From: Massilibacillus massiliensis
Lineage (GTDB): Bacteria > Bacillota > Negativicutes > FLKF01
Assembly: GCF_900086705.1 (NCBI RefSeq)
Contig: NZ_LT575483.1
Location: 1,755,534 to 1,819,533 of the forward strand
Direction: 5' to 3'
DNA: 64,000 nucleotides
In this document: in pieces, positions 10,110-62,654 of the stretch
Layout of the letters: every line of letters starts with the position of its first letter
Numbering within the stretch: the first letter of the stretch is position 1
Notes under the pieces: model-generated
Seen by the model: only the letters and a program-made list of their open reading frames with translations
Database searches by the model: none
What the model was told of the DNA's origin: nothing
Program-made: the position numbers and the translations under genes

Positions 10110-10217
10110 AAAGCAGAAGAATTTATTCCATGATCACCTGTCTTTACAGCTACCTAACGAGTTGGAGTAAAGCCAGCAAAATCTTTGGATAAAAATAAAG
10201 ATTGAGGAGTGTTTCTT

Positions 10218-11377: not shown

Positions 11378-11403
11378 GCACAATCATCCTTTATCGACAT
11401 AAC

Positions 11404-11444
11404 AAAAATCCCGGAAAATGTTCTCACATTGATCCGGGATTTTT
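11404..11444 (+). terminator. Intrinsic terminator of the peptidase operon
   Basis: AAAAATCCCGGA pairs with TCCGGGATTTTT, capped by the inner hairpin AATGT-TCTC-ACATT. T-tracts lie on both sides, so it can act in both directions. The cap is identical to that of the terminator at 13051-13094. Confidence 0.85.
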
Positions 11445-11615: not shown

Positions 11616-11786
11616 GTAGGATAACCTCCTAGGCTTATGATATTGACTTGCGACATCATGATCATACTAACATTGGAGGTTTCTTAATTCACTTGAAGAT
11701 AGCTGAACAATGCAGACAATCCTGTCTATAGAATCAATAGTAGAATCAGCTTGACTCTCAATTAAATACTGTTAGGAGATTAAATA

Positions 11787-12851: not shown

Positions 12852-13050
12852 TCACTTAAAATGTATAAGATAGTACTTCAACCAGTAAAAACATCATAAA
12901 ACAATCGATCAGTCAAATGCCGTCCAATCTACCGATCTATTTGACTACTCAAAAAATCAGTGGGTTTATCCAAAAACGAAAAATGATTAGATCAGCGCAC
13001 AATACAACACAACTAGATTTTGTTATCTTAAAATTCCCTATTCACCTATT
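12852..13050. other. Non-coding gap after the DUF2939 gene
   Basis: I see no convincing gene. One 8-bp inverted repeat (AGTCAAAT/ATTTGACT, near 12912-12947) is present. The end is occupied by the terminator described separately. Confidence 0.5.
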
Positions 13051-13094
13051 AAAAATCCCAGACAAATGTTCTCACATTTTGTCTGGGATTTTTT
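13051..13094. terminator. Bidirectional intrinsic terminator between convergent genes
   Basis: AAAATCCCAGAC pairs with GTCTGGGATTTT and is capped by AAATGT-TCTC-ACATTT, with T-tracts on both sides. It separates the rightward DUF2939 gene from the leftward MFS gene. The cap matches that of the terminator at 11404-11444. Confidence 0.88.
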
Positions 13095-13132
13095 CATTTC
13101 ATTCTAGGATTTTTGTGAATATTATACTAAAT

Positions 13133-14422
13133 TTAAGCTGCTGTTTTTTCTACTTCGATATGTTTTACTTTACCAAGTAAGAATGCATAGTTTAAGATAC
13201 CAACAATTAAAAGAGCTGCGGAAAGCAACAATGCCATATTGAATGAACCCGTTGCCTGTAAAATTGCCCCGGTAACGATAGGGCCTACAACCCCGCCCAT
13301 GTTAGAAACAGAGTTTTGCAGTCCGGCAACCACAGAGGTCATATTTTTTGGTGCAACATCACCCGGAAGCGCCCACACCTGAGATGCAGCTACAGTTGTG
13401 CCGGATTTGGCAAGACATAAAAGTGCCACTGCCATAATTGGCGATTCTGCAAACGCCGCTAAACCGATTGTAGATGCCATCAAAAGGCCGCCGACTAAGA
13501 ATGTTTTACGTGTTGCAGTTAGAGATAACCAGCCTTTTGCATATACTTTATCCGATGCCCAGCCTGCTACGACTTCCACAACCATGGAAACTAAGAGCGG
13601 CAGCATTGCTGCAAATCCCATTGCGAGCATTCCCATGCCTTTTTCTTTTACAAGATACGTTGGCAACCAAGTAATGAAGAAATAAGACGTGTAATTAATC
13701 ATAAAGAAACCAATACACATTGCCCAAATATTTCTGTATTTCAAGAGTTCATACCATTTCATCGGTTGTTCGTTGTCAAGACCTTCTTTTTTGGCCTGTC
13801 CATCACGAATATATTTCAATTCGGCGGCATTTACACCCTTATGTTCTTCAGGAATATTTTTATAATACCAGAACCATACAACAGACCATACAACCCCAAC
13901 AAGTCCGATAATAACAAAGGTCCATCTCCAGTCAAAAATTGAAATCAACCATACGATGAGCGGCATTGCAACTGCACCGCCAAATTTAGACCCACTGTCG
14001 AAAAGACCGCCAACCGTCGCTCTTTCCTTGTCCGGGAACCACTTAGATGAAATTCCGGCGTTGCTTGGATACGCAGCGGCCTCCCCAATACCAAGTCCCA
14101 TACGAAAGGCCAAAATAGATTTAAAGCCTGTCGCAAGTCCGGTCATAGCAGTGGCAATAGACCACCAAGCTACAGCAAATCCCAACGTAATTTTTTGTCC
14201 CAAGCGATCGGCAAACCACCCTGCCGGAATCTGCAATAAGGCATAAGTCCAAAAAAAGCCCGACATGATAATCCCCATCTGACTCGGTGTAATTCCAAAT
14301 TCTTGCGTAATATGAGGAGCGGCGGCAGCAAGTACAGTACGGTCAATATAATTGACAGCGATTGCTGTCCACATTAATCCGGCAACAACCCAGCGCACAT
14401 TTGATTTTTTCTCATTCACCAT
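13133..14422 (-). CDS. MFS transporter, anion:cation symporter (sugar-acid) family
   Basis: A 429-residue carrier with twelve predicted membrane helices. The N-terminal VNYIDRTVLAAAAPHI and IPAGWFADRLGQK loop motifs and the RMGLGIGEAAAYPSNAG helix are typical of the ACS family, which includes galactonate, glucarate and hexuronate transporters. It is the last gene of the leftward acid-sugar operon, 305 bases after the Fe-alcohol dehydrogenase. It most likely imports the four-carbon (or related) acid sugar phosphorylated by the DUF1537 kinase. A GGAGG site lies 8 bases before the ATG. Confidence 0.9.
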   Translation of the reverse strand: MVNEKKSNVRWVVAGLMWTAIAVNYIDRTVLAAAAPHITQEFGITPSQMGIIMSGFFWTYALLQIPAGWFADRLGQKITLGFAVAWWSIATAMTGLATGFKSILAFRMGLGIGEAAAYPSNAGISSKWFPDKERATVGGLFDSGSKFGGAVAMPLIVWLISIFDWRWTFVIIGLVGVVWSVVWFWYYKNIPEEHKGVNAAELKYIRDGQAKKEGLDNEQPMKWYELLKYRNIWAMCIGFFMINYTSYFFITWLPTYLVKEKGMGMLAMGFAAMLPLLVSMVVEVVAGWASDKVYAKGWLSLTATRKTFLVGGLLMASTIGLAAFAESPIMAVALLCLAKSGTTVAASQVWALPGDVAPKNMTSVVAGLQNSVSNMGGVVGPIVTGAILQATGSFNMALLLSAALLIVGILNYAFLLGKVKHIEVEKTAA

Positions 14423-14727
14423 GATAATACCTCCACTTTTAATAAATTCATTCCATAAATAAAATATAAACCAGTGCTTTTATCATAAATATAGGGTTTT
14501 TATAAAATATCGAGAATATTTTTAATCTTCTCTCTACATTTATCAATCAAATTATTCTGACTTTTATTGAACGGCTGCAGTGCTTTTCTACTTATTTTAG
14601 ATAGAAGCCGCCTGCGCCTCCTCTTGGGACATTTCAATTTAGGTTCAGATGGAGACGAACTCCATCTGAACTATAGAACCATTGCTCTTTGTAAAATAAG
14701 CAGTTGTATTCCAGCGCTACGCAGATA
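14423..14727. other. Gap in the acid-sugar operon, with one strong hairpin
   Basis: No gene is seen in this 305-base gap. A perfect 12-bp hairpin (GTTCAGATGGAG-ACGAA-complement) lies at 14643-14671, with a possible outer GGTTC/GAACC pair, but no T-tract follows it on the minus strand. It may stabilise or partly terminate the upstream message, lowering MFS expression relative to the enzymes. Confidence 0.5.
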
Positions 14728-15888
14728 CTACATTAATTTTTTATAAATCTCCCGCATATCATCTTTCGTAACAACTTTAGGATTGTTATCTAAAAGTCTG
14801 GTAACCTTCGCAGCCGCATCAACCAAATCATCCAGAACGGATTCATTGATACCTTTTTCGCGCAGATCACATGTTACATTCATATCTTCGATCATAGAAT
14901 ATAAATTTTCGATCATTTTTTCTGCTGCCTGTCTTGTTGTACAATTTTCTATATCAAGTTCCATGGCAACTGCGATATCTTTAAATTTGTCTTCACAGAC
15001 ATCTAAATTGAACTTCATTACATCCGGCAATAGAATTGCATTGGACAGACCATGTGGAATATGATACTTACCACCCAAAGGATAGGACAACGCATGGACT
15101 GCCGTTGTACTGGATGTTGCGATAGAAATCCCGCCAAAAGTTGCTCCTAAAAGCATATCTTCACGTGCTTGCAGATTTTTTCCATCGTTGTAAGCCGTCC
15201 GAATACTGCGAGAAATAAGTTTGATTGCTTTTAACGCAAATGTATCACTGAACGGATTTGCTTTTTTCGAAATATAGCATTCAATTGCATGGCATAAAGC
15301 GTCCATACCTGTGTTTGCCGTAATATGTTTTGGCAAGCCAACTGTCATTTCCGGATCTAAAATTACACAGTCAGAAACCATTTTTTCACTGACGATTCCA
15401 ACTTTTAGTTCTTCTTCAGGTACTAACACAATCGCATTTGGCGTTGCTTCCGAACCAGTACCGGCAGTTGTAGGAATCATTAGCGTAGGAACGCCACGAC
15501 GTTTGAACTGTTTCTTGCCTTTTACCAAATCATATAACGTTACATCATTGGTCAATAGCAAAGATACTAATTTCGCCGTATCCATGGAGCTGCCGCCGCC
15601 AATGCCGATAATCATCTGACATTCAAAACTCTTTGCGGCATCAAAGATCGCATTGACTTGTTCAAGTGCTGGTTCCGGCGGTGTATCATTGATAATATGC
15701 ACATTGATGCCGGCATCTTCAAGAATTTTCTTTGGTTTTTCAACCAAACCTGTTTGCCAAACGCCTTTATCGGTGATGACAACTACATTTTTCGCTTCGA
15801 AGCTTTCTACAACATCTTTGATTTGTGCAATAGAGCCTGCACCAGCTATAATTTTTCCTATATTCAAAAGTGAATATGTTTTATTCAT
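14728..15888 (-). CDS. Iron-containing alcohol dehydrogenase
   Basis: A 386-residue group III (Fe-dependent) NAD(P) alcohol dehydrogenase. Visible are the nucleotide-binding IGIGGGSSMDTAK, the metal ligands in GMDALCHAIECYI and IPHGLSNAILL, and the usual full length. It follows the 2-hydroxyacid dehydrogenase within about 35 bases in the acid-sugar operon. It probably reduces an aldehyde produced by the aldolase, or oxidises a terminal hydroxyl of the substrate. The exact reaction is not readable. Confidence 0.9.
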   Translation of the reverse strand: MNKTYSLLNIGKIIAGAGSIAQIKDVVESFEAKNVVVITDKGVWQTGLVEKPKKILEDAGINVHIINDTPPEPALEQVNAIFDAAKSFECQMIIGIGGGSSMDTAKLVSLLLTNDVTLYDLVKGKKQFKRRGVPTLMIPTTAGTGSEATPNAIVLVPEEELKVGIVSEKMVSDCVILDPEMTVGLPKHITANTGMDALCHAIECYISKKANPFSDTFALKAIKLISRSIRTAYNDGKNLQAREDMLLGATFGGISIATSSTTAVHALSYPLGGKYHIPHGLSNAILLPDVMKFNLDVCEDKFKDIAVAMELDIENCTTRQAAEKMIENLYSMIEDMNVTCDLREKGINESVLDDLVDAAAKVTRLLDNNPKVVTKDDMREIYKKLM

Positions 15889-15922
15889 TTTTCATCGCTT
15901 CTTTCAAGATAGTATAGTCTAC

Positions 15923-16900
15923 TTATTTATTCCAACGCGGATGTTCATACGCTTTAGGATTGCAAACTTTCGGCCAGCGCTGTCCGTTCATCACAGCAAT
16001 TACGCCTTCTGCCGCCATTGTTGCCACTCCGGATGCCGCTTCTTTTGTCTGTCCCGCCATATGAGGGGACACAATAATGTTTTCATATTGAAATAATGGA
16101 TCTTCTGCAGTTACCGGTTCAGTTGTAAATACATCTGTCGCCGCCGCATGAATTTGATTTTCTTCCAGTGCTTTTGCCAATGCTTTCTCATCTACAATGC
16201 CGCCGCGCGCGCAGTTAATCAAAATCGCATTTGATTTCATTAATTTCAATTCGGCTTCACTAATTAGATTTTTCGTTTTTGGTGTTAAAGGTACATGCAG
16301 TGAAATAACATCCGCCACTTTTAAGACTGCATTGATGTCAGTTTCATGCTGATAGCCTTTCTCCGTAATGACTTCTGGTTTCACAAACGGATCATATACT
16401 ACAACTTTCATTCCAATACTGGATGACATCTGCGCTAAAATGCTGCCGATATTTCCATATCCAATGAGTCCCAAGGTTTTTCCATATAACTCAAAGGCTT
16501 TATAGCTGCTTCTTATGTTAAAATTGCCTTTGCGAAGTTCTTTATCACTATGCAGCATATCTTTCGCCGCAGCGAACATAAAGGCAAATGCATGTTCTGC
16601 AACGGAACGCGTATTTGCACCTGGTGCAATAACGACAGGAATACCAAGCTCTGTTGCCGCTTCAACATCAACATCATCTACGCCAACGCCAGGGCGTCCA
16701 ATGACCTTCAAATTTTTTGCCGCCAGCATCGTTTCTCTATCAATTGAACCGATACGGATAATCAGTCCTTCTGCATCCAATAATTCCGGCAGCATTGCTT
16801 TTGGATCACCATTATTCGTAATTGCCACTTTTACATTGGCTTTTTCTAAAACAGCCATGCCATCATCATGTAATCTATGCGATATAACAACTTTTTTCAT
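15923..16900 (-). CDS. D-isomer-specific 2-hydroxyacid dehydrogenase
   Basis: 325 residues, NAD-dependent, with GLIGYGNIGSILA for cofactor binding, the Arg in NCARGGIVDEKA, and the catalytic His in VSPHMAGQT. The short C-terminus lacks ACT domains. It lies between the DapA-like aldolase and the Fe-alcohol dehydrogenase in the acid-sugar operon and probably acts on a 2-keto or 2-hydroxy acid intermediate there. AAAGGAG precedes the ATG. It is one of four members of this family in the window. Confidence 0.88.
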   Translation of the reverse strand: MKKVVISHRLHDDGMAVLEKANVKVAITNNGDPKAMLPELLDAEGLIIRIGSIDRETMLAAKNLKVIGRPGVGVDDVDVEAATELGIPVVIAPGANTRSVAEHAFAFMFAAAKDMLHSDKELRKGNFNIRSSYKAFELYGKTLGLIGYGNIGSILAQMSSSIGMKVVVYDPFVKPEVITEKGYQHETDINAVLKVADVISLHVPLTPKTKNLISEAELKLMKSNAILINCARGGIVDEKALAKALEENQIHAAATDVFTTEPVTAEDPLFQYENIIVSPHMAGQTKEAASGVATMAAEGVIAVMNGQRWPKVCNPKAYEHPRWNK

Positions 16901-17022
16901 TTAGCGTGCTCCTTTGCTTAAATTTAAGTTTTGAGCCAAAAGCATAGAGTTTATCGCATCCGCTATACAAAGAATGTACAAACTCCATGCCGTGCTCTCT
17001 ATAAAAAACTAGGGGTAGTATT

Positions 17023-17898
17023 TTATTTATATAATTTGAAAACTTCTTTCAATGCCGCGTCGATTTCAGGTTTAGCACAATTCGATGGTTCGCGTGCCGG
17101 GCCAACAGGATAGCCAAGTAAATTAACGGCACGTTTTACAACGGAATTCGGATTGCCCATTTGCATTACATTGCGGAATGGTCTGATTTTCTTTTGTGCT
17201 TCGTTTGCTTCAGCAATTTTTCCTTCTGACCATAATTTATAAATACTGACCATAAGTTCAGGGAATACATTGGAACAACCAGAAATTGCGCCACTGCCAC
17301 CTGCCATTAAAGTCCAAAGAATCAAAGAGTCACTGCCTGCAAGAACGCTTAAGCGCTCATCGGTATTTTCAATATATTTTAATGTGTTGTCAAAGTTTCC
17401 GCTGCTGTCTTTGATCCCAATGATATTTTTATATTTCGCTAATTTTGCTACTGTTTTATAGTCGATGTTATTGCCGGTTCTCGCCGGAATATTATAAAGC
17501 AGAATCGGTAAATCAACAGCTTCAGCTACTGCACTGTAATGACGATAAAGATCGTCTTGTGATATTCCAACGAAATATGGAGAAATGACGGATAATACAT
17601 CCACGCCTAAATCTTTGGCAATTTTGGATAATTCAATCGTTTCTTTCGTCGTAACACAACCGGTACCTGCATATACAGGAACTCTGCCATTTACTTCGTC
17701 TACTGCCACTTTGATGATTTCAATTTTTTCTTCTTTGGAGAAAGCATAAAACTCTCCGTTTGTGCCTAATGGGAAAATACCGCTGATTCCAGCGTTAATC
17801 AAACGATTGATCTGCACGCGATATTCTTTTTCGTTGAATTTTTCATCCTCTGTTAAAGTCGTTAGAATAGGTGTAATAATTCCTTGTGGTTTAAACAT
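17023..17898 (-). CDS. DapA/NAL-superfamily aldolase
   Basis: A 291-residue class I lyase of the dihydrodipicolinate synthase / N-acetylneuraminate lyase superfamily. It forms or splits C-C bonds with pyruvate through a lysine Schiff base. The catalytic Lys lies in IIGIKDSSGNF, the Tyr in LLYNIPARTG, and the pyruvate-binding loop is PLGTNGEFY (canonical GTTGE altered to GTNGE, seen in sugar-acid aldolases). The operon context (DUF1537 kinase, PdxA2, 2-hydroxyacid dehydrogenase) points to sugar-acid cleavage and not lysine synthesis. Confidence 0.88.
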   Translation of the reverse strand: MFKPQGIITPILTTLTEDEKFNEKEYRVQINRLINAGISGIFPLGTNGEFYAFSKEEKIEIIKVAVDEVNGRVPVYAGTGCVTTKETIELSKIAKDLGVDVLSVISPYFVGISQDDLYRHYSAVAEAVDLPILLYNIPARTGNNIDYKTVAKLAKYKNIIGIKDSSGNFDNTLKYIENTDERLSVLAGSDSLILWTLMAGGSGAISGCSNVFPELMVSIYKLWSEGKIAEANEAQKKIRPFRNVMQMGNPNSVVKRAVNLLGYPVGPAREPSNCAKPEIDAALKEVFKLYK

Positions 17899-20424: not shown

Positions 20425-22299
20425 TTATTTTGCATTTAATTTCCGCCACAACGTTGTTCGATGTATCCCCAATCTCGCAGCCGCACGGCTATAATTGAAG
20501 TTTTCCTCTGCCAGAACACGCATTAAAGTATGTTTTTCTAAATTTGCTAAATTATCCTTCTGTTCATCAATTTGCTTAACTTCAACCAGCTGCCCCTCTT
20601 CATCCCGCGCTTCCATAATATCTTGTTTCGTAATAGCCGGACCATCGCTGAGCAGCATGACACGCTCTATCGTATTGGCAAGCTGTCTGATATTGCCCGG
20701 CCAAGCACAGGTTTTCAGATATTCCCTTGCTTCCAAATCAATCCCTGTAATCTTCTCATTCATGCTTTGCATCTGATACACCATTCTTTTTGCAAGTAAC
20801 GGAATATCCTCTACGCGTTCTTCTAAGGTCGGCATATGAATTCTCAAAATATTTAAGCGATAATAAAGATCCTGACGAAATTGTTTATCTTCCACCATCT
20901 TGGCTAAATTTTGATTCGTTGCCGCTACAATACGAACGTCGACAGGAATTACACTATCGCCGCCTAGATGCATCACCGCCTTTTCCTGCAAAACTCTGAG
21001 CAGCCTTGATTGCAGTGACATTGGCATTTCACCGATTTCATCCAGAAAAAGTGTTCCGCCATGTGCAAGCTCAAACAATCCCTGTCTGCCGCCTCGTTTC
21101 GCACCAGTAAATGCACCTTCTGCATAGCCAAACAATTCGCTCTCCAGTAAATTCTCCGGTAATGCTGCACAGTTAACCGCTACAAACGGTCCACCAGAAC
21201 GCGTGCTGATATTATGAATGCTTTGTACCAACATTTCCTTACCTGTTCCGGATTCACCCGTAATTAAAATCGTCGATTGCGTTAGGGCATATTTCGTCGC
21301 TTTACGTTTCATCGTCATACACGCCGTTGAAGCCCCAATGATATCTTCCATCTTAATACGTGCAATCAACCCTTTTGCATGCAATTTTTTCCGCACATTT
21401 TGTTCTAATTGCTGTAACTGCGATACATTTTGAAAGGTATAAATATTTCCGATTGTTTCATCTCTCACTTTAATATGACGCTCTTTTACAGTCACTGTCT
21501 TATCCCCAATTTTTTGCACATCGTTATCGACGCGCTTTTTCGAAAGCTCCAAATCAGGAATTACGTGTTTGAGTGACTTTCCCATGACTTCCAAATGCGA
21601 TACTTTAAACATTTTTTCTGCCATTGGATTAAAAATCGTAATCTGTGCTGCAGTATCCGTTGCAATAATGCCCTCTGCCGATTGGTCAATTACAGTTCTA
21701 AGCAGTTCTGCTTTTTCTTGTTCCTCCCGGCGAATCTTCGCGATCAACTCAGCTTCTTTCATCGCCTTATAAATCGCCTCGCGTCCGGAGTGAATCAATA
21801 CACAGGATACCCCCAAATTTCTTGCAATTTTAATCGAAATTGCATCTCCGACAATCAATTCTACACCATTTTCAATTGCAGCCGTAATTCTTTCCTTTGC
21901 CTCTGATTCATCCTGCAATGTAATTTCACAAAAGGTAATTCCTAATAACTTAGCTAAATCCTCATAACCATAAATTACATTTTTAAAACCAGCAACGCCA
22001 ACCTTTTCCGGATATTTTCCGTTTTGCATCATTGCTCGTAAAATATCAATGACCGTAACTTGAATCGGTACAATGGGTATATTAACATTCTGTTCAATCA
22101 AGGTAGCCGTCCCACCGCGGCTGACAATCACTTCTACCCCGTCTTCCACTTCCTGCTTTACCATCGCAATACATTCGTGCAAATCACCCTTCACGATTTT
22201 TATTTGATTTGCAGCATCAGCAAATTGTTCTTTTACTACATCTTCTGCAACCTCTACCAAATCTGTAAACGGTGCCACAAACAAAATTCGTGCATCCAT
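20425..22299 (-). CDS. Sigma-54-dependent activator with PrpR-N and PAS domains
   Basis: A 624-residue enhancer-binding protein. Residues 1-180 form a PrpR-type sensory domain, which in propionate regulators binds a small acid. A PAS domain follows at about 195-300, then the AAA+ domain with Walker A GESGTGKE (348-355), the sigma-54 contact loop GAFTGA and the Walker [12 protein letters not shown] Fis-type helix-turn-helix ([17 protein letters not shown]) ends the protein. It is encoded just upstream of, and in the same direction as, the acid-sugar operon with its consensus sigma-54 promoter, so it most likely activates that operon on sensing the acid sugar or a phosphorylated intermediate. 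Confidence 0.93.
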
Positions 22300-22402
22300 A
22301 CGCTCACCCCAATTTTATAAAAAGATATCTGATTCTTATTAAAAATTATTGTACCATAAATACAATGCATTTTATAATCCTGGTAAATTTTTTATTTTAA
22401 AA

Positions 22403-43036: not shown

Positions 43037-43366
43037 TTATTCTTCTTCCTTAAATCGATCCAACATAGAAATTGTATCCACCAGATGATTGTTAAAAATC
43101 TGCTTAGCAACTTCAAGCAATTCGAGAATCATCGGATCACGTAAGGAATAGGTCACTTTGTTTCCATCTTTTGTCCCGTGCACAATATTTTTATTGCGCA
43201 ATATCGCCAATTGCTGTGAAACCGCGCTACCTTCACTGCCCAGCAAGGATTGCAGCTCATTTACATTCTTATCCCCTTGCGCCAACAGTTCCAAAATACG
43301 AATTCGAAGTGGATGCGCCAAAGCCTTGAAAAATTCTGCTTTAAACTGTTGTAATTCTAAATTCAC
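43037..43366 (-). CDS. ArsR-family winged-helix regulator at the end of the hydrogenase operon
   Basis: A 109-residue dimeric repressor: FFKALAHPLRIRILELLAQGDKNVNELQSLLG followed by the recognition helix GSAVSQQLAILRNKNIV. I use the GTG at 43366, which follows GGGGTG and starts just after the hydrogenase small-subunit stop. The typical metal-binding ELCVC motif is absent, so it may sense redox or a metabolite. As last gene of the Hyf-like operon it is a candidate regulator of that operon. Confidence 0.85.
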   Translation of the reverse strand: MNLELQQFKAEFFKALAHPLRIRILELLAQGDKNVNELQSLLGSEGSAVSQQLAILRNKNIVHGTKDGNKVTYSLRDPMILELLEVAKQIFNNHLVDTISMLDRFKEEE

Positions 43367-43367: not shown

Positions 43368-43835
43368 CTATTCACCCCGTTTAAGAATTTTTTCATATTG
43401 ACCAAGCGCAAGTAGAATTCCTTGTATCAATGCCTGCGGTCTTGGCGGACACCCCGGAACATAAGCATACACCGGCACAAATTGATCCACACCGCCCGCA
43501 TTGGCATACGTTTCACCAAAAACGCCGCCGCCACAAGCACATGCGCCAACTGCCAGTACCATTTTCGGATTCGGTACTGCTTCATAAGTTCTCTTCAATG
43601 CTTTTTCAAGATTACGTGTTACACCGCCAGTTACCATCAACAGATCCGCTTGACGTGGTGAAGGAACAAAACTAACACCAAAACGGCTTATATCATAAAT
43701 TGGATTCGACAAAGTTGACATTTCAAAATCGCACCCATTGCAAGATCCCGTATCAACGTGCCGAATATGAAGTGACCCATTTAAAACTTCTTGAATCCGT
43801 TTCTTTAAGTCATTTCCTAATTCTTCTTCATTCAC
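43368..43835 (-). CDS. hyfI: Hydrogenase small subunit, NuoB/HyfI/HycG family
   Basis: 155 residues. This subunit holds the proximal 4Fe-4S cluster that passes electrons to the [NiFe] site, in the cytoplasmic arm of the membrane complex. Cluster ligands are C32 and C35 (GSCNGCDFE), one in GACACGGG and one in VPGCPPRP. The GTG start at 43835 has a GGAG site 7 bases upstream. It is followed at once by the ArsR-type regulator. Confidence 0.92.
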   Translation of the reverse strand: MNEEELGNDLKKRIQEVLNGSLHIRHVDTGSCNGCDFEMSTLSNPIYDISRFGVSFVPSPRQADLLMVTGGVTRNLEKALKRTYEAVPNPKMVLAVGACACGGGVFGETYANAGGVDQFVPVYAYVPGCPPRPQALIQGILLALGQYEKILKRGE

Positions 43836-43850
43836 TTTGCTATCTCCTTC

Positions 43851-44177
43851 CTATTGCACTGGATCTTTATCCACAGAGACCAATAAATCTGTTGTTGACC
43901 TTGCCGCCAAATAACAATCTGTTGTTTGCACAATCGCATCCGTCTGACAAACCTTTACACACTGACCACACATAATACAATTGCCATGAAACAAGCAGAT
44001 TTTATCACCCTGCTTATAAAGTGCCCCCGTCGGACACGCGGCGATACATGCCTCCCAATCGGTATTCGGTACGGCTGTAAGCACGAGTTTTCCTCTATAT
44101 TTTTTCGGCGCAGAATCAAACGGCTGCTTTTGTGTAACCGTTCCGATTTTCCAAACCTTTCTAAACATATCAAACAT
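43851..44177 (-). CDS. hyfH: HyfH/HycF-like ferredoxin subunit, with one incomplete cluster motif
   Basis: 108 residues. The second 4Fe-4S motif is complete (CIMCGQCVKVC). The first should read CxxCxxCxxxCP but is reduced to WEACIAACPTGAL, so two cysteine ligands are missing compared with E. coli HycF. The subunit may therefore carry only one intact cluster. I start at the ATG at 44177 after GAGGCG; a GTG at 44195 is possible. It lies between hyfG and hyfI in the operon. Confidence 0.88.
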   Translation of the reverse strand: MFDMFRKVWKIGTVTQKQPFDSAPKKYRGKLVLTAVPNTDWEACIAACPTGALYKQGDKICLFHGNCIMCGQCVKVCQTDAIVQTTDCYLAARSTTDLLVSVDKDPVQ

Positions 44178-44201
44178 TGTATTCGCCTCTTTCACCTATC
44201 T

Positions 44202-45785
44202 CTATCGATCACAACAAGAATAGCACAGTTCAAAACTTTTATTGATGAGCGGAAAATCTGCCACAATATTGCCCGGTACCGCGATCGGCACAACTGGCCA
44301 ATTGCTGTACGAAGCAGAGCGGATGCGATATCGGTAGATTTTTTGCTTCTCATCTACCATAAGCCAGTGACAATTTTCTCCGCGTGCAGATTCTGTCCAG
44401 CCAAAGCTGGTCTCATACGCTGGGATTGCCGGAATTTCCTGAAAAATATCACCTTCGGGCAATGCCTGCAAAATTTGCCGGATCAGTAAGATCGAATTAA
44501 ATACCTCTAGAATCCGAACTTTAATTCTGTCCAGTACATCGCCTTCTTTCTGTAACACCACAGCAAAATCCAGTTGATCATACGCCGCATAAGGTAAATC
44601 GCGACGACAATCTATATCGCGCCCCGACGCACGTGCCGCAACGCCAACAGCCCCTAAATCCGTGACTTGTTTCAAGTTTAATCGCCCTGTAGTTTCCATC
44701 CGATCCACGGCGATTTCATGATTGAGTAAAATATCCGCCAAATCTTGAAAATCAGGATCGAGCGTATTCATCGCCTGCGCAATCCTATCCATTTCGTCTT
44801 TTCTAAGATCTTGTTTTACTCCGCCAGGGACAATCATACCACGCAAATAGCGATGCCCCGTCAATTCTTCATTTAAGTGCAGCAACAGTTCTCGCATACG
44901 CGCACCTTGACTCTTGCCAATTGCAAATCCATACCCCGCACAGATATTGCCAACATCACCCACATGATTATATAAACGTTCCAGCTCTAAATATAACGTT
45001 CTGATATACCTTGCTCTTACAGGAATTTTCATCTGCGCAGCACGTTCTACCGCTTGCGCAAAAGCTACTGCATGAGAAACATTACAAACGCAGCAAACAC
45101 GTTCAATTAAAAACATCGCTTGCGTAAAGGTTTTGCCTTCCAACTGTTTTTCGATTCCGCGATGCGTATAAAAAAGACGAGCATCTAAGTGCAGCACCGT
45201 GTCACCAACTGCCCCAAAACGAAAATGACCGGGTTCGATAATGCCCGCATGAATCGGCCCTACGGGAATTTCAGTTACATCCTCGCCAACATACTGCGTA
45301 AACGCCTCGCTTTCTTGTTCACTTGGAACAAATTTAGACTCCACATAATCCTTGCGAAGCGGATACACATCTTCCGGCCAATTTCCATGAAAAATTAATG
45401 GACTACGATTCGGATGACCGATTGCACGAAGCCCAAACAAATCATTGACCTCACGTTCATACCAGTTCAATACCGGTAAATACGCAGCAAGTGATGGAAA
45501 CGTAGGATCATCTTCAGTTATATAAATTTTAATCGATATGAAATGATCAAATGCATCCACGGCAAACACATAATAAAGTGCAAAATACCCATTGATTTGC
45601 CGCTCATCATTGCCCACCATCGTAAACAATCTCCATTGCTTTTCCTGACAAATATATAAACAAGCCTCCGGCAGGTCTTTTTTATCCAGCCTAATACTCG
45701 TTTCTCGTTCCTTCTCCTGCACCTGTAAAACAGCGCCGCCTAAATGCTGCAACAATTTTTTTATCGCTCTTCTCTTCGCATCCAA
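44202..45785 (-). CDS. hyfG: Group 4 [NiFe]-hydrogenase large subunit (NuoC-NuoD fusion, HyfG/HycE-like)
   Basis: A 527-residue catalytic subunit. Residues 1-150 are the NuoC-like domain, the rest the NuoD-like hydrogenase domain. All four nickel-site cysteines are present: CxxC at C231/C234 (ERVCCVCNVSH, a variant of RVCGIC) and CxxC at C521/C524 in the last residues (LCYSCCDR). The protein ends three residues after the last ligand, so there is no C-terminal peptide to be removed by a maturation protease, unlike HycE. The TTG start at 45785 directly follows the hyfF stop. No formate dehydrogenase gene is seen in the window. Confidence 0.92.
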   Translation of the reverse strand: MDAKRRAIKKLLQHLGGAVLQVQEKERETSIRLDKKDLPEACLYICQEKQWRLFTMVGNDERQINGYFALYYVFAVDAFDHFISIKIYITEDDPTFPSLAAYLPVLNWYEREVNDLFGLRAIGHPNRSPLIFHGNWPEDVYPLRKDYVESKFVPSEQESEAFTQYVGEDVTEIPVGPIHAGIIEPGHFRFGAVGDTVLHLDARLFYTHRGIEKQLEGKTFTQAMFLIERVCCVCNVSHAVAFAQAVERAAQMKIPVRARYIRTLYLELERLYNHVGDVGNICAGYGFAIGKSQGARMRELLLHLNEELTGHRYLRGMIVPGGVKQDLRKDEMDRIAQAMNTLDPDFQDLADILLNHEIAVDRMETTGRLNLKQVTDLGAVGVAARASGRDIDCRRDLPYAAYDQLDFAVVLQKEGDVLDRIKVRILEVFNSILLIRQILQALPEGDIFQEIPAIPAYETSFGWTESARGENCHWLMVDEKQKIYRYRIRSASYSNWPVVPIAVPGNIVADFPLINKSFELCYSCCDR

Positions 45786-47255
45786 TTACTTCACCCCTCC
45801 TTGCAAAACAGCCGCTGCCATATACACTGCGCGTTCAATAAACTCCGGTACATACAAACCAAACAGTATAACCAATGACAAGGGAAGAAGCATCGCTATG
45901 CGCATCCACCAGTCTGTCCTTTTTTTACCTATACGAGCCGGCAGTTCGCCAAAACTCATTTTTACCACATAATAACTCATGCCCGCAAAAATTAAAACGA
46001 TCAACAGCGCAAAAATACAGGAAGCCCAAATCTTACCGGCGAGGACACCTGCGATCATAATCGTAAACTCACTGAGAAAAATACTAAATGGCGGTGCACC
46101 TGCTATCGCTAAACCGGCGAGCAAAAAGACGCCACCTGTAAACGGCATCACCTTCACTACCCCTGTAATACGATCCATATACTTAGAATGATATTTCTGT
46201 GCGATATTTCCGGCAGAAAAAAACAATACGGACTTCGTCATAGAGTGATTCATCATATGCAAAAAAGCACCGTAAAGACCGATTGTTCCTCCAAGCCCTA
46301 CTGCAAGTGTTATAATTCCCATATGTTCGACACTAGAAAATGCCAGCATACGTTTTAAATCATGCTGCACCATAATAAACGGTACCGTCACACCAATCGA
46401 AAACAAGCCAAAAGCAATGAGATAATCACCGGCACTGCCCTGCAGGGTAACATTTGCAATTGCATAAACACGAAACAATCCATACAACGCTGTATTTAAT
46501 AAAACACCGGATAATACTGCACTTACCGGCGCAGGTGCTTGACTATGCGCATCCGGAAGCCAAAAATGCATCGGTGCGATTCCTGCTTTCGTCCCAAAAC
46601 CAATTAAGATGAAAATAAAGCCGATTTCAACCCAGCGAGGATTTAGCCCCTCTGCTAATCGAAAGAGCTGTGTCCATTGCAGTGCCGAAGTGGAGTGTTC
46701 ACCAATACTATTCAAACCTGATAGATATAAAAACACAATGCCAAGTAAAGCAAATGCAATCCCGACTACGCCCATAATCAAATATTTCCAAGCAGCTTCC
46801 AAGGCATGCCTTGTACCATAAAAGGCAACCAACATCGCCGAAACTAAAGTTGTAAGCTCAATTCCGACCCATAACAAGCCTAAATTATCTACCGAGCTGA
46901 CAAACAACATCGTCAAAATGAAAAAATGGAAAAAGAAATAATATCGCCCAAGCTGATTTCTGGAAATCAGTCCTTCTTTCACTTCATAACGCATATACCC
47001 CACAGAATAAAGCGATGCTGCAAATCCAACTGCTGCAATTAATACAATATGAAAAGCGCCTAACGCATCGACATAAAACCAACCAAAACTTTGCAAAACC
47101 TGTCCTGCATATACTTGCCAAGCAATCTTCACAGAAATGCAAAGGGTAACCAAAGATCCAATCACCTGCAAAAGATCAGCAAATTTATGTTTACATAACA
47201 GACCTGCACACACACCTGTCAGTAACGGCAGGGCAAGCAATCCTAAAACTAACAT
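45786..47255 (-). CDS. hyfF: HyfF-like proton-translocating membrane subunit
   Basis: 489 residues with about fourteen membrane helices. It belongs to the Mrp/NuoL-M-N antiporter family; conserved helix motifs are WVGIELTTLVSAMLVAFYG, with the pump Glu, and GFGTKAGIAPMHFWLPDAHSQAPAP, which carries the lysine. In group 4 hydrogenases such subunits couple electron transfer to H+ or Na+ translocation. It is adjacent to hyfE (2 bases) and hyfG (0 bases) in the operon. Confidence 0.92.
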   Translation of the reverse strand: MLVLGLLALPLLTGVCAGLLCKHKFADLLQVIGSLVTLCISVKIAWQVYAGQVLQSFGWFYVDALGAFHIVLIAAVGFAASLYSVGYMRYEVKEGLISRNQLGRYYFFFHFFILTMLFVSSVDNLGLLWVGIELTTLVSAMLVAFYGTRHALEAAWKYLIMGVVGIAFALLGIVFLYLSGLNSIGEHSTSALQWTQLFRLAEGLNPRWVEIGFIFILIGFGTKAGIAPMHFWLPDAHSQAPAPVSAVLSGVLLNTALYGLFRVYAIANVTLQGSAGDYLIAFGLFSIGVTVPFIMVQHDLKRMLAFSSVEHMGIITLAVGLGGTIGLYGAFLHMMNHSMTKSVLFFSAGNIAQKYHSKYMDRITGVVKVMPFTGGVFLLAGLAIAGAPPFSIFLSEFTIMIAGVLAGKIWASCIFALLIVLIFAGMSYYVVKMSFGELPARIGKKRTDWWMRIAMLLPLSLVILFGLYVPEFIERAVYMAAAVLQGGVK

Positions 47256-47257
47256 AT

Positions 47258-47893
47258 CTATCCCCTTAAATCTTGCATTTTTTCTGTATTTAAACTATGG
47301 AAAACCGAATGAATCCTAAACGACAAACTCGCGATAATAACAACTGCCACAAACAAATCAAAGAAAATTCCCAGTTCAACCGCCAGTGGCATTCCATAAC
47401 TAATAGACTGCGTGACTAAAAACAAGCCATTTTCAATCACAATAACACCAATCCCCTGCATGAGAATCTGTTTATTATTAATAATCGTAAACGTACCTAA
47501 AAACACCAAAATAATTGCTGCCCCTAAATACCGCATACCATGCTCTGCTCCCGGCAAACTTAAATGTGAGGCCACATACTGTCCTGTGACAACAAGTACC
47601 AGGGCAATCAATAAAGATCCAAACTGCCCCATCGTTCTTTCAACATTTCGTTTCGCCCTTGTTTTTTTCACTGTATAAAACAAAATATAAGGAATGATCA
47701 GCGCCTTAACAACCATCGTCATAACCGCCGCAATCAATAAATGCACCATCCCCGTTTTCTGCCACATCAACAGAGCAATCACCGCCAATCCCGTCGATTG
47801 CACAGCAACAATGATCACAGCATCCATCGTTTTTTTCGTTCTAAAAAGTAATAAAGTACTCAGCAGCAATACTGCTGTAACCAAACTCTCCAT
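47258..47893 (-). CDS. hyfE: HyfE-like membrane subunit
   Basis: 211 residues with six membrane helices, NuoK-like in part (GIGVIVIENGLFLVTQSISYG). It begins MESLVTAVLLLSTLLLF, 6 bases after AGGAGG; a longer open frame to 48016 is not supported. HyfE is a membrane linker of hydrogenase-4 type complexes. The hyfD gene normally found beside it in E. coli is not present. Confidence 0.9.
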   Translation of the reverse strand: MESLVTAVLLLSTLLLFRTKKTMDAVIIVAVQSTGLAVIALLMWQKTGMVHLLIAAVMTMVVKALIIPYILFYTVKKTRAKRNVERTMGQFGSLLIALVLVVTGQYVASHLSLPGAEHGMRYLGAAIILVFLGTFTIINNKQILMQGIGVIVIENGLFLVTQSISYGMPLAVELGIFFDLFVAVVIIASLSFRIHSVFHSLNTEKMQDLRG

Positions 47894-47903
47894 TCTGATC
47901 CTC

Positions 47904-48845
47904 CTATTTTGCGATTTGTAAAACGATCGCCAAAATTGACAATGCCATTGAAGAAGCCAATAACTTCGGTATCTTAAAAATACGAATTTTTGCATACATC
48001 GTTTCAATACAAGCAAGTAATATTCCTACAGCAATTATTTTTAGCACATAAAAACCCAATCCTAAAATAAGTGACGAAGGTGCAAAATCAACCGCAATGC
48101 CCCAAGGAAAAAATAAATTTACAAACATACTAAATAAAATCGTCTGTTTTACAAGAACCGCCCATTGCAAAATACCCCAATACCGTCCCGAATACTCTAA
48201 CATCATCGCCTCATGCAGCATTGTCAGTTCTAAATGCGTATCCGGATTGTCATAAGGAATCCGCCCCGTCTCTGCAATCACCACAATCAAAAAAGCAATA
48301 CAGGAAAGCCAATGTCCATAGTCAAATAAATCCCAATCCAATTGAATCAGCGTTCGAACCACATCACCGACATTGGTTGTTCCAACATTGAGAAGCACGG
48401 CAATCACTGCCAATAAAAGCGCCGGCTCACAAATCGCGGCCATCACCATCTCACGGCTGGATCCCATTCCCCCAAACGCACTGCCTGCATCCAATGCTGT
48501 AATCGCCAAGAAAAATCTCATAACAGCAAACAAATACACAATCAATATGATATCACCTGTAAAAGCGAGCGGTGCTTCAATCCATACGGTTGGAATCAAG
48601 GCTCCCACGCAAAGCACCACCGCAAAACAAATATACGGCGTTGCCCGCGTAAGCCATGAAGCATCTTTTGCAAGTACCGCATCTTTTTTTAAATACTTAA
48701 AAATATCACGATACGGCTGCACAATATCCGCGCCTATGCGATTTTGCAAGCGTGCTTTCGTTTTTTTTATGATGCCCTGCACCAAGGGCGCTAACACTAG
48801 CAAACCTACAATCTGTCCTAAACCAAACATAAAATGCTCTATCAT
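47904..48845 (-). CDS. hyfC: HyfC/HycD-like membrane anchor (NuoH family)
   Basis: 313 residues and eight membrane helices. The NuoH-type loops ARLQNRIGADIVQPYRDIFKYLKK and ETGRIPYDNPDTHLELTMLHEAM are intact. It binds the hydrogenase arm to the membrane and forms the proton path entrance. It starts 4 bases after the hyfB stop. Confidence 0.93.
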   Translation of the reverse strand: MIEHFMFGLGQIVGLLVLAPLVQGIIKKTKARLQNRIGADIVQPYRDIFKYLKKDAVLAKDASWLTRATPYICFAVVLCVGALIPTVWIEAPLAFTGDIILIVYLFAVMRFFLAITALDAGSAFGGMGSSREMVMAAICEPALLLAVIAVLLNVGTTNVGDVVRTLIQLDWDLFDYGHWLSCIAFLIVVIAETGRIPYDNPDTHLELTMLHEAMMLEYSGRYWGILQWAVLVKQTILFSMFVNLFFPWGIAVDFAPSSLILGLGFYVLKIIAVGILLACIETMYAKIRIFKIPKLLASSMALSILAIVLQIAK

Positions 48846-48849
48846 ATCC

Positions 48850-50877
48850 TCACCTACTCCAAAGCAACGTTAAAATTAACGCCACTACCATATAAGACAC
48901 ATACGCCTGTAAATTTCCATTTTGTATAATTCTGATCCGTTTAAATAATTTCACCATAATCCAAATCATCGGTTTATATACTTTATCACCGACTCTGGCA
49001 TTGATATCAATCGCATGATGAATTTTTTTCGGATAATATGCATATTGTTCTTCCATTTTCACCTGCCGTGACAAACCAAAAACCTGATGAAAAATCCTTA
49101 AAACCGGATGCGAATAAGAAGTCGCCGTGTACTCCATTTTCGCAGCATGCTGATAACCACAAGTCCAAGTATCTTCCAGCACATAACGGCTTTTACCATA
49201 ACGTAACCGAAGCCACAGCAATACGCCTAAAAGAATAAGAGCAAAAATTACGCCTATAACACCTACGGATATCATCTGCACATCCTGCGAAGCAAATGGA
49301 ATCGCCAGTAGCAAATTCCCACTGATTTGCGCTGTAAAATAACGCAATGTGACCTCATGGATCAATGTGATTGCCCCACCTGGAAAGAGACCCAAAACCA
49401 AGGACAACACTGCAAGTAATCCCATCCCAATTCGCATACTAATATTAACTTCCGCAGCCTGCTGTGCCACTTGACTGCGTGGTTTTGCCAGAAATGCCGT
49501 ACCAAAATGTTTCACTACAGCAACCATCGAGAGCGCACCGCTAAACCCTAAAACAGCGACAACCATCGCCGCAAAAAATTTCACCATACTTGTGCCACCG
49601 TCAAAAGCCATATGCAAAACTGTTTGCAGGAGCGCCCATTCACTCATGAAACCACCGAGCGGCGGCAATGAAGCAAGCGACATGCCCCCAATAAGAAATG
49701 CCGCTGCCGTCCAAGGCATTCGGTGAATCAAACCGCCGAGTTGTCCCACATTACAAGTTCCGGTAGCCTTTAATACAGCCCCGGCACCCATAAACATTAA
49801 ACTTTTAAATACAGAATGATTCAACACATGATACAACGTTGCCGTAAGTGCCAAGGCACCCAGAACCCCTTGTCCGGTTGCTTGAAAATACAAACCCGCA
49901 CCAATTCCGACACAAATCATTCCCATATTCTCCACACTGCTATAGGCGAGAAAACGTTTCGTATCATTTTGTATCACACCAAGCAGAATCCCAACCATTG
50001 CGGAAAGTGCACCGACTGCCATAACAGTAATGCCCCACCAAGCAGGCCCAGTACCAAAGAAATCAAAACTAACACGCAAAAATGCATACACCGCTGTTTT
50101 AATCATAGCCGAAGACATCAGCGCCGTTGCACTCGTAGGTGCTACCGGATACGCGCGCGGCAGCCAAACATTCATCGGGAATAGACCCATTTTTGCGCCA
50201 AACCCAATCAAGAAACAAAAAAACACAATACTTTGCATATGTGTGGGCAAAACATGTCCAATATTTTTATAAGCAGCAAACTCTAAACTACCAGTATATA
50301 AATATAGAATAAGAAAAGCAAAACTCAAGCACACACCACAAACATGTGTCATGATTAAATACATATAACCGCCTGAACGAACCTTTTGCTTTTCATGCTC
50401 GAACATCACCAAGAAAAAAGATGATACCGCCATAAACTCCCAGAAAATAAGAAAAGTAACCGAAGTATCTACACCGACAACGCCAACCAAAGATAAAATA
50501 AATACATTCATCCCTGCACCCAAATAACCGGCTGCACGCTTTTCATAATACTTCGTCGCATACCCCTGCGCATATAACGCACAAATTGCCGACATAACAC
50601 CTATGATCAATAGAAAAAATGCTGCCAATGAATCAAACTGTACCTTAAGTACAATACCTCCCATAATCCGCCAAGCCACAGCAGATAACTCCTGATGAAA
50701 AAACAGCAATCGCCCTGCAAGAATTGCAATCAAACTGCCTCCAGCTAACGAACAACCATTCGCAAAAGTACTGGCAAGTTTTTGATTTCTATTGAACAGC
50801 ACGGGAAGCAAACTCCCAGCTATGAAACAGACCAAACCGACTTGAAATAAACGCAAATTTAAAACCGTTGCTTCCAT
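48850..50877 (-). CDS. hyfB: HyfB/HycC-like proton-translocating membrane subunit (NuoL family)
   Basis: 675 residues with about sixteen helices. The antiporter motifs LIFWEFMAVSSFFLVMFEHE and GFGAKMGLFPMNVWLPRAYPVAP are conserved, and the C-terminus has the lateral-helix-like extension of HyfB. It is the first gene of the hydrogenase operon; GGAGG lies 6 bases before the ATG. Two antiporter-type subunits (HyfB and HyfF) suggest strong energy coupling, as in Hyf-type complexes. Confidence 0.93.
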   Translation of the reverse strand: MEATVLNLRLFQVGLVCFIAGSLLPVLFNRNQKLASTFANGCSLAGGSLIAILAGRLLFFHQELSAVAWRIMGGIVLKVQFDSLAAFFLLIIGVMSAICALYAQGYATKYYEKRAAGYLGAGMNVFILSLVGVVGVDTSVTFLIFWEFMAVSSFFLVMFEHEKQKVRSGGYMYLIMTHVCGVCLSFAFLILYLYTGSLEFAAYKNIGHVLPTHMQSIVFFCFLIGFGAKMGLFPMNVWLPRAYPVAPTSATALMSSAMIKTAVYAFLRVSFDFFGTGPAWWGITVMAVGALSAMVGILLGVIQNDTKRFLAYSSVENMGMICVGIGAGLYFQATGQGVLGALALTATLYHVLNHSVFKSLMFMGAGAVLKATGTCNVGQLGGLIHRMPWTAAAFLIGGMSLASLPPLGGFMSEWALLQTVLHMAFDGGTSMVKFFAAMVVAVLGFSGALSMVAVVKHFGTAFLAKPRSQVAQQAAEVNISMRIGMGLLAVLSLVLGLFPGGAITLIHEVTLRYFTAQISGNLLLAIPFASQDVQMISVGVIGVIFALILLGVLLWLRLRYGKSRYVLEDTWTCGYQHAAKMEYTATSYSHPVLRIFHQVFGLSRQVKMEEQYAYYPKKIHHAIDINARVGDKVYKPMIWIMVKLFKRIRIIQNGNLQAYVSYMVVALILTLLWSR

Positions 50878-59668: not shown

Positions 59669-62563
59669 TCAAAAAACCTCCATAAAGGCTTCTGGTGTCT
59701 GCGCGGTTAACAAAGCTTCTACCTTTTTTTCCTGCTTTAACACGCGAAATAATTCTGTCACAATATTGGCATCATGATCCTCGATCGCCAGCATGCAGAT
59801 GAGCTTCACTTTTCGACCATCTGTATCCCAGACAATGGGCTCTTTCAATCGTAAAAATACAATACAGGAATGATTGACATAAGCAGACATCCCATGGGGA
59901 ATCGCGATCTCACCTTTAAAATAAGTGGTATTCATTTTTTCACGTTCTTCTACAGATTCGAGATATCCCTTTTTCACGTAGCCATTATTAAATGCCATCA
60001 CACACATTCGTTCTAAAATTTGTTGTTTCGACGTTAGATCAAAATCCAGTAAAACAAACTCCGCTGTTATAATATTGCCAATCCCCATTGCAGTGTCAGG
60101 TTTCAAGATATAATCGAGAAAAATCTTATTATGATTGATAAAATCATTTTCAAACGGAATAAATTTAATTCCTCCGATCCCGGGATTTATTGTCCCAACG
60201 ATCGCCACAATATGATATTGCTGCTTCAAATCAGCAATTTTTTTATTTAAATTCTCCTCGACCATGCCCAGCGTAAAAATTTTTAAGTTATTGTATTTTG
60301 CGGTCAGAACACGCTGAATGTTCTCTGCCATTCCCCGCCCCGTCAAACACATGGTAACAACTGCCGACGGCTTATGTGACTTGCGCTCCGGCACAATTTG
60401 AAACTTATATTTTAAATTCACCAGCTCATAATAAATATCGTCCAGATCTTTCTCTTCTACATAAACCTTTCTCACTGCTTCTAATACAGTGAGAATGTCA
60501 ATACGATCTATCGTACGCGTCTTTATTCCAGTTCTTTTATAAATCACGTCGCCGACATTTACCAAAGAGCCCATATCTACTAAGAATAAAATGCCTTTTC
60601 CAGTATCAAGAATCTTCGCAATCTCGATTGTTTTTTCAAATATTTTAGAAGGATTTACCGCGAGAGGCATATCAATGGCCACTGGGAAGTCCACATTCAT
60701 GAGTTCATGTACTACTTTTACCATCTCTGTCGCTATTTTTCCATGACACATCACGATAATTCCTATTTTATTGTTTTTTTGTTTGGCTTCAAGCAACTTT
60801 TTAATATACATCGCCATGAAACTTATTTCATCATCTGGAATCTGAATCTTTTCTCTATCTTCAATTTTTAAAGCCAACTGACAGGCTAGTTCGTATTCTT
60901 CTTTCATACTTTCCCTAATATACACAGAATTCGGATTGATAATTTCTACCTTAAACCGTATCCTCTTGATCGCTTCATTGATATGAATCGCCAAGTACAA
61001 GATGATATTGCCATTGATCGTGCTTTGCGAATACTTTTCCCTTAACTCCAAAACAAATTCTTTAAGAAGCGCAAGCACGGTATCTTTTACAACATATTTC
61101 AAATTATCCAGGCAGTTTACATCATATTTCGCATTGCCATCAAAATCTATCATATTAAAATTTTTAATAATAAACGTCCACATAATTTTTTCAATTTCGT
61201 TGTTTGTTAAATCTAAATTTTTAAGTTCTTGATATTTTTTTTCTATTTTTTGATAAATATCCTCCGGCATAGCGTATTTTGTTTCTTTTACCATCGGATA
61301 TTCTACGATTTTGTCATTAGGATCGTTTTGTGGAATTAAAAGTTTATCTTTGATTAGGCTATTTAATTCCGAAATATCATACGTATCAACGCTGACATCT
61401 TCACTAAAAAAATTATTGTACAAAATTTCATTAAGCCCGATATCAATTTCATTTTTTTCTGAATTGATCTTATCAATATACGCATTCGCACAGGTGACTT
61501 GTATTTCACTTTTAATCTGACCGATATTTCCCTGATAGTTTTTTAATACAAAGGATTTGATAATTTTCTTGCTTAAAAAAATTTTAGAATTAATTCGATT
61601 TGCCTCTGCCTGAAAAAAAGAATAAATCAACTGTACCTTCTCACTGACAGAACGATGTTCGAGCGCCGGCATTGAAATAATCATCGGAATTCTACGCCGA
61701 AAACTCGTAAGCAAAGTTGATTCTATATCCTCCGTAGTTGCTCCGATGAAAAAAACGCGAACTTTTCTTTCTCCAGAGGTTTCTCCTAGTCTTCTAAATG
61801 TCCCCTTATCTAAGAGTGAAAAAAGAATTTCTTGCCCTTTGGGCGGCAGTCTGTGTATTTCATCCAAAAAAAGTATATTATGATCCGCTTTTTCTACCAA
61901 TCCTTCTGTATCTGTATCTGCACCAGTAAAGGCACCTTTTTTATAACCATATAAAATAGAAAGTAATAACTGTGGATTATCTGCATAATCGGCGCAATTC
62001 AATGCGATAAATGGACTATTTTCAGCAATGATTTTTTCTTGCATGGCATATTTATGCATATATTCAACAAACAGTGTTTTTCCCGTTCCGCTTTCTCCTA
62101 TAATGAGTGTCGGCAAGCCAAACGGTGGATATCGTACCGAAGCTTTTGCCTGCTTAATACAATTTTTCAGACTTCTATCATAGCCAACCAGATGATGAAA
62201 GATATCCGGTTTTTCTGCTTGCAACTGACCAATTGGAGCTTTTTGCAATTTGCATTCAGTCTCATAGTTTGTAAGTGCTCTATGAATATACGAGATGGAA
62301 ACATCAAAACCATGCTTAGCAAGTTCCATGCTTACTTGTTTGGCATTTATTTTGCTGTTTTTCTGCTTTAAAGCCTCTATAATATGAAAAATTGCGATTT
62401 TCTTTCGCTCTCTTGAATTGGGAATTTGCAATTCATTTCGAACATTGGTCACCGTCTCTCGTAATACAGAAATTTTCCGAGCGATTTCTTCATCGCTCAA
62501 GGGTTGCGTAATATCTTCACGTTCAATAATTTCTTTGATTTTATTTAAGGTATTTGCATTCAT
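59669..62563 (-). CDS. LevR-like sigma-54 activator with PRD and PTS domains
   Basis: A 964-residue PTS-controlled enhancer-binding protein. Domains in order: helix-turn-helix region (1-100), AAA+ sigma-54 activation domain (about 125-340; Walker A GESGTGKT 156-163, GAFTGA at 210-215, LFLDEIHRLP), a PRD (about 455-595, His526 in LAIHINEAIKR), EIIA-Man (His606 in MCHGK), an EIIB-Gat-like segment (Cys739 in TMCLTGRG) and a C-terminal EIIA of fructose/galactitol type (His890 in IAIPHG). Phosphorylation of these sites by the PTS sets its activity. Classical LevR ends with a second PRD; here an EIIA takes that place. The ATG at 62563 follows GGTGG by 7 bases. It lies between the PTS genes and the catabolic genes it probably controls. 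Confidence 0.92.
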   Translation of the reverse strand: MNANTLNKIKEIIEREDITQPLSDEEIARKISVLRETVTNVRNELQIPNSRERKKIAIFHIIEALKQKNSKINAKQVSMELAKHGFDVSISYIHRALTNYETECKLQKAPIGQLQAEKPDIFHHLVGYDRSLKNCIKQAKASVRYPPFGLPTLIIGESGTGKTLFVEYMHKYAMQEKIIAENSPFIALNCADYADNPQLLLSILYGYKKGAFTGADTDTEGLVEKADHNILFLDEIHRLPPKGQEILFSLLDKGTFRRLGETSGERKVRVFFIGATTEDIESTLLTSFRRRIPMIISMPALEHRSVSEKVQLIYSFFQAEANRINSKIFLSKKIIKSFVLKNYQGNIGQIKSEIQVTCANAYIDKINSEKNEIDIGLNEILYNNFFSEDVSVDTYDISELNSLIKDKLLIPQNDPNDKIVEYPMVKETKYAMPEDIYQKIEKKYQELKNLDLTNNEIEKIMWTFIIKNFNMIDFDGNAKYDVNCLDNLKYVVKDTVLALLKEFVLELREKYSQSTINGNIILYLAIHINEAIKRIRFKVEIINPNSVYIRESMKEEYELACQLALKIEDREKIQIPDDEISFMAMYIKKLLEAKQKNNKIGIIVMCHGKIATEMVKVVHELMNVDFPVAIDMPLAVNPSKIFEKTIEIAKILDTGKGILFLVDMGSLVNVGDVIYKRTGIKTRTIDRIDILTVLEAVRKVYVEEKDLDDIYYELVNLKYKFQIVPERKSHKPSAVVTMCLTGRGMAENIQRVLTAKYNNLKIFTLGMVEENLNKKIADLKQQYHIVAIVGTINPGIGGIKFIPFENDFINHNKIFLDYILKPDTAMGIGNIITAEFVLLDFDLTSKQQILERMCVMAFNNGYVKKGYLESVEEREKMNTTYFKGEIAIPHGMSAYVNHSCIVFLRLKEPIVWDTDGRKVKLICMLAIEDHDANIVTELFRVLKQEKKVEALLTAQTPEAFMEVF

Positions 62564-62654
62564 GGTATTTCCACCATCCCTACTATATCTTGAATCCACG
62601 CGTACCTTGTCCGAATTGAAAAAGTATCCCGACGTCATTTCTGATTGTAATTAT

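Follow-up and report, generated by a model that had tools for sequence, protein, structure and literature searches.

The closest described systems to the hyf-like operon analysed here are the Escherichia coli complexes Hyf (hydrogenase-4 or formate hydrogenlyase 2, FHL-2) and Hyc (FHL-1) of [NiFe]-hydrogenase group 4a, the HydDB group 4f, the Ehr complexes and the sulfane reductase MBS. In the accessible passages of the reports concerned, group 4f is a putative formate-coupled [NiFe]-hydrogenase (PMC9431212; PMC9888536; PMC7248197), six-gene clusters of Desulfitobacterium and Desulfosporosinus carry the 4f label (PMC9888536; PMC7248197), Ehr is described as near 4f (PMC10284858), and MBS belongs to the complex I superfamily and has no NiFe centre (PMC7684303). 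The operon lies in a 64,000-nucleotide stretch of Massilibacillus massiliensis DNA (NZ_LT575483.1, 1,755,534-1,819,533), hereafter the window, to whose positions all coordinates refer unless a contig or locus is named. A sequence-only reading had taken it for a possible distinct group 4 subtype with another electron donor and protease-free maturation. Our analysis leads to a stronger statement: the operon belongs to a family of four-cysteine relatives of Ehr that persists without Hyp proteins.

HypD serves the Fe(CN)2CO assembly of [NiFe] centres. Among the 300 genomes of the class Negativicutes that were searched, 161 had a HyfG match at E <= 1e-30 and 102 were counted as family members (about 40% HyfG identity or more); HypD was found in 213 of the 300, being present in 65 and absent in 37 of the family genomes. 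This distribution is explained by the presence of another true [NiFe] large subunit (a PF00374 match at E < 1e-25): 64 of the 102 family genomes have both, 36 have neither, and the two exceptions are a 58% complete genome with a hydrogenase and no HypD (G142) and a 79% complete genome with a partial HypD and no hydrogenase (G242). When family genomes at least 95% complete are considered, HypD and another [NiFe]-hydrogenase occur together in 52, both are missing in 24, and there is no exception. HyfG was inspected in 23 of these 24 (G273 was left out); it is of the four-cysteine form in 22, and in G114 it is a Cys-to-Ser form linked to formate dehydrogenase (FDH). HypA gave no match above the cut-off in any of 25 HypD-less genomes tested (two of them, G016 and G077, being single contigs), HypF gave only partial matches below the cut-off, and HycI was absent from all nine HypD-less genomes searched for it. 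On the HyfG tree the HypD state switches at least six times. As a control, 24 genomes of the class with a compact Ech/Coo-type group 4 enzyme were compared: 22 also have HypD, and the other two are 73-75% complete. No hyp genes were present in 60 loci (59 family loci and L007), and nine of the ten loci of a comparison set (L115-L124) contain them.

Since four-cysteine HyfG persists in genomes without HypA, HypD and HypF, the family enzyme does not require the NiFe assembly line; it has the four cysteine ligands of a [NiFe]-hydrogenase and not the dependence on Hyp proteins. Protease-free maturation, proposed in the sequence-only reading, agrees with the relatives without HycI but says too little, because HypA, HypD and HypF are missing too and the family can do without the entire assembly line for NiFe(CN)2CO. 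We found no published statement of Hyp independence for this family in the open-access literature, which did not cover the original Ehr and HydDB papers.

The metal site itself is well preserved. HyfG (44202-45785, minus strand; PF00346, 183 bits; PF00329, 80 bits; PF00374, 59 bits) is a large subunit with 30-kDa and 49-kDa domains and, as had been proposed, retains all nickel ligands: by sequence and alignment, C231 and C234 lie in motif L1 (CCVC, 45084-45095) and C521 and C524 in motif L2 (CYSC, 44214-44225), both on the minus strand. The four-cysteine alignment comprises 65 rows from 64 of the 102 family genomes, leaving out L006 (identical to the G098 row), four FDH-linked rows and L007. 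All four cysteines are found in 65 of 65 rows, the window included, and 28 rows come from HypD-less genomes, a conservative tally in that G142, where HypD was not found, was counted as HypD-positive. E193 is kept in all of 66 family rows and R478 in 64 (Lys in the other two), the S283 position is Asn in 66 of 66, and the HyfI proximal cluster has its four cysteine ligands in 63 of 63 rows. Before L2, all 11 Hyp-dependent references have Asp-Pro and all 66 family rows, the window included, have Glu-Leu; the residue concerned, D529 of HycE (the Asp of DPCxxC), is called strictly conserved in the available text of PMC9474812, and its position is Glu in all 66 rows and Asp in all 11 references. 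These retained ligands argue for a working electron path ending at a four-thiolate site of another kind rather than for a decaying hydrogenase. A precedent for a metal in a two-CxxC site beyond the NiFe centre is the quartet of E. coli HycF, which, according to the accessible part of the same report, holds a single metal, tentatively iron (PMC9474812).

In the HyfG tree, the window family and the cysteine-less Ehr complexes form one clade (75 rows, support 100), whereas E. coli HycE/HyfG and the FHL enzyme of Azospirillum lipoferum, a system with hyfD, HycI and a tail, fall outside it; the expectation of a distinct group 4 subtype was thus supported. The branch that separates the family from Ehr has a support of only 84. 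A first tree gave long-branch warnings for L118 and NuoD, and for the second L118 was omitted and Ehr-like and FHL sequences from plasmids were added. The Ehr-like clade mates come from Methylocalor, Rhizobium, Paraburkholderia, Azospirillum thermophilum and a Ruminiclostridium metagenome-assembled genome (MAG), the Ehr identity of the four plasmid-borne cysteine-less proteins and the one MAG protein being assigned by their motifs. Family and Ehr share the hyfB-C-E-F-G-I core and a C-terminal NKSF motif, but Ehr is devoid of the CxxC motifs, whereas the family keeps all four cysteines. With E. coli Hyf and Hyc the family shares homologous subunits (HyfG is about 34-38% identical to HycE across the family loci); it differs from them, and from what is expected of a group 4a FHL-2, in the absence of HyfA, HyfD, HyfJ, the FDH partner and the C-terminal extension for a HycI-type protease, in having ELCxxC where they have DPCxxC, and in its separate clade. 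Judging from the published six-gene 4f clusters and the stated closeness of Ehr and 4f, the family likely corresponds to HydDB group 4f; however, the window lacks an FDH partner, and the Hyp independence of the family calls the hydrogenase label of 4f into question. A well-described group 4 clade sharing all the peculiarities of the operon would have spoken against the sequence-only reading; most of them are indeed common to a large clade, probably part of 4f, but this clade is not well described.

Two branches make up the family. Branch A, to which the window belongs (11 rows), has the gene order hyfB-C-E-F-G-H-I-arsR, with HyfH fused to HyfI in G012 only; in branch B, HyfI carries HyfH as an N-terminal fusion. 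One genome (G021, locus L045, 4636-19998) carries a branch A operon directly beside a branch B operon. Two of the peculiarities that had been singled out are ordinary for the family: hyfD is missing from every family locus examined (the two BLAST matches to it in the window are HyfB and HyfF themselves), and HyfG, which ends in ...NKSFELCYSCCDR-stop, with C525-D-R-stop after L2 and thus at the Arg following the last Cys, has no C-terminal tail in 65 of 65 four-cysteine rows, as is also the case in nine of nine compact Ech/Coo-type rows. Only two others, CCVC and the depleted HyfH, are special. RVCCVCNVSH in place of RVCGIC, with an extra cysteine (C232) where Gly is usual, is indeed present, and CCVC was found in three of 66 rows, namely the window, a Massilibacillus MAG (78% HyfG identity) and G016 (69%). 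The same three genomes have the depleted HyfH, whose motif 1 has lost its first two cysteines and retains only the third and fourth, motif 2 being complete; the remaining branch A members with a complete HyfH part have CGVC and two complete cluster motifs. Because the two changes co-occur in these three genomes only, a single event in a small lineage seems to account for both. If, as we presume from the ligand pattern of the related complex I subunit, it is the outer cluster that has lost its ligands and the remaining one lies next to HyfI, the loss would shorten the electron wire. C525 (44211-44213) is a fifth cysteine directly after the last ligand, found in 11 of 11 branch A rows (CYSCCDR or CYACCDR) but in no row of branch B, and together with CCVC it gives the window site six cysteines.

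A branch B subclade (L056 in G114, L114 in G146, L128 in G082 and L129 in G142) has Ser at the first and third metal-site cysteines and Gln for R478 in four of four rows, and L056 and L129 adjoin fdhF-like genes. It resembles a formate-hydrogenlyase operon but, with such substitutions, should not hold a normal NiFe centre.

We regard as the probable explanation that the complex is a membrane-bound and ion-pumping oxidoreductase of the group 4/Ehr lineage, whose four-cysteine site lacks the Hyp-built NiFe(CN)2CO and is loaded with metal without Hyp. Low-potential electrons, most likely from ferredoxin, would enter through HyfH and travel over its one complete cluster and then the proximal cluster of HyfI to the HyfG site made by the four cysteines that hold NiFe in true hydrogenases. 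This site would most likely contain a mononuclear Fe or Ni, or an Fe-S cluster, and the electron transfer may drive ion export via HyfB, HyfC and HyfF. Another electron donor, as had been suggested, is plausible given the shortened HyfH and the lack of a nearby FDH: the window contains none, the nearest PF00384 protein of the genome lies about 80 kb outside it, and an FDH alpha subunit lies about 1 Mb away.

Several observations weigh against this explanation. The four cysteines, E193, R478 and the proximal cluster all resemble those of hydrogenases. Hyp genes, which the sequence-only reading had left to be located, are present in the own genome: HypD, HypF, HycI and HypA are encoded at C6:1855241-1860271, starting about 36 kb past the window end, in a region (C6:1855241-1880788, L125 and L126, about 36-61 kb beyond that end) that also holds two full-length [NiFe] large subunits, one beside the hyp genes (1861464-1863185) and the second at 1879067. 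The window complex could therefore receive a NiFe centre from its own Hyp proteins, and for this copy the case against such a centre comes from its homologues, chiefly that of G016, a genome with the same peculiar motifs and without HypA, HypD and HypF. Furthermore, of the Hyp proteins the genome-wide search covered HypA, HypD and HypF, and the AlphaFold2 model of HyfG, made from four sequences (window, L005, L006 and L007), has a mean pLDDT of 50.6, too poor for cysteine distances.

Most of these observations also speak for the best of the alternatives, an ordinary H2-evolving group 4 [NiFe]-hydrogenase, matured in the window organism by the hyp genes beside its other hydrogenases and needing no protease for want of a tail; tail-less group 4 enzymes accompanied by hyp genes do exist in the same class. 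We nevertheless consider it unlikely, since orthologues with the same ligands occur in the 28 rows from HypD-less genomes, including the CCVC-bearing G016, and the D529 position is Glu throughout the family. Somewhat less probable still is a sulfur or disulfide reductase similar to MBS, in which the CxxC pairs would be redox thiols beside the proximal cluster. In the accessible text of PMC7684303, MBS uses the corresponding chamber to reduce polysulfide and has retained two of the four large-subunit cysteines, and the window subclade has even added cysteines (CCVC, CYSCC); however, the MBS proximal cluster has three cysteine ligands, whereas HyfI has four, and the large subunit of the family has four cysteines and not two (PMC7684303). 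A ferredoxin:menaquinone oxidoreductase, that is, a primitive complex I whose cysteines are structural or bind a non-catalytic metal, would fit the clade shared with cysteine-less Ehr complexes, the correspondence of the complex I quinone site to the metal-site position described in part of PMC9474812, and the UbiA of the window genome, but it is very improbable, as 12 of 28 genomes tested, all without HypD, have no UbiA-type quinone prenyltransferase yet keep the operon and its four cysteines, and HyfI has the hydrogenase-type CxxC and not the tandem CC reported for complex I in the available text of PMC7684303.

Since these twelve genomes keep the operon without HypD or UbiA, a reduced membrane quinone is an unlikely product in them, and so is H2 from a Hyp-built centre. 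RnfC was above the cut-off in only eight of the 28 genomes tested, the window genome not being one of them, and in view of this scarcity the hyf complex may be an important ferredoxin-linked pump in several lineages.

The operon is arranged on the minus strand as hyfB-C-E-F-G-H-I-arsR, with overlapping or closely spaced genes. The two antiporter subunits recognized earlier were both recovered, as HyfB (48850-50877; PRK06521, hydrogenase 4 subunit B, 598 bits) and HyfF (45786-47255; PRK06458, 458 bits). HyfB keeps E135, K239, H328, H332, K336 and E391 (HycC numbering), and HyfF keeps H328, H332 and K336. HyfC, a NuoH/HycD-like membrane subunit (47904-48845; PF00146, 148 bits), mostly retains its E-channel residues, and its loop THLELTMLHE is unlike that of E. 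coli; overall, the pump and E-channel residues are mostly conserved. HyfE is a small membrane subunit (about 47258-47893, ATG start inferred; PRK11492, 98 bits). The short ferredoxin-like HyfH (43851-44177, start taken from orthologues; PF00037 and orthologue comparison) has one complete 4Fe-4S motif, and the small subunit HyfI (43368-43835; PF01058, 110 bits) has a hydrogenase-type proximal cluster formed by C32, C35, C99 and C129. Directly after hyfI, outside the span 43368-50877 of the sequence-only reading, lies a gene for an ArsR-family regulator without any cysteine (43037-43366, start from orthologues; PF01022), which we count as the last gene of the operon because it adjoins hyfI in nine of ten branch A genomes, the tenth being cut at a contig end.

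No match to fdhF, hyfA, hycB, focB or hypA-E was obtained by BLAST among the open reading frames of the window, and across the family loci the neighbour analysis found no partner gene conserved outside the operon; most of the large clusters were frames on the strand opposite to hyf genes. Two window reading frames, distant from the operon, match a HyfR-type activator (20428-22314, 42% identity; 59672-62650, 31%). Elsewhere in the genome (L057, C6:2686000-2705999, about 7850-17197), a complex I-type operon encodes, by similarity, NuoB, C, D, H and I and three antiporter-like subunits, with no match to NADH-input genes in the stretch examined.

For the family as a whole, the name [NiFe]-hydrogenase is doubtful; its members are probably a different enzyme that databases mislabel. 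More tentatively, and with somewhat less than even confidence, we propose that they are widespread energy-converting complexes with a new self-assembling four-thiolate metal centre, turning over (and possibly making H2) without Hyp; they would then be living four-cysteine forms that bridge group 4 hydrogenases and Ehr/complex I. When the hydrogen metabolism of gut or rumen is surveyed, group 4 large subunits are scored as hydrogenases, for example those of 4f in the accessible part of one such study (PMC13383528). If about a third of the Negativicutes genomes sampled have a four-cysteine complex with no need of the NiFe assembly line, these tallies, and the H2 fluxes derived from them, would be wrong for Negativicutes, and a natural four-cysteine stage between hydrogenases and complex I would be open to experiment.

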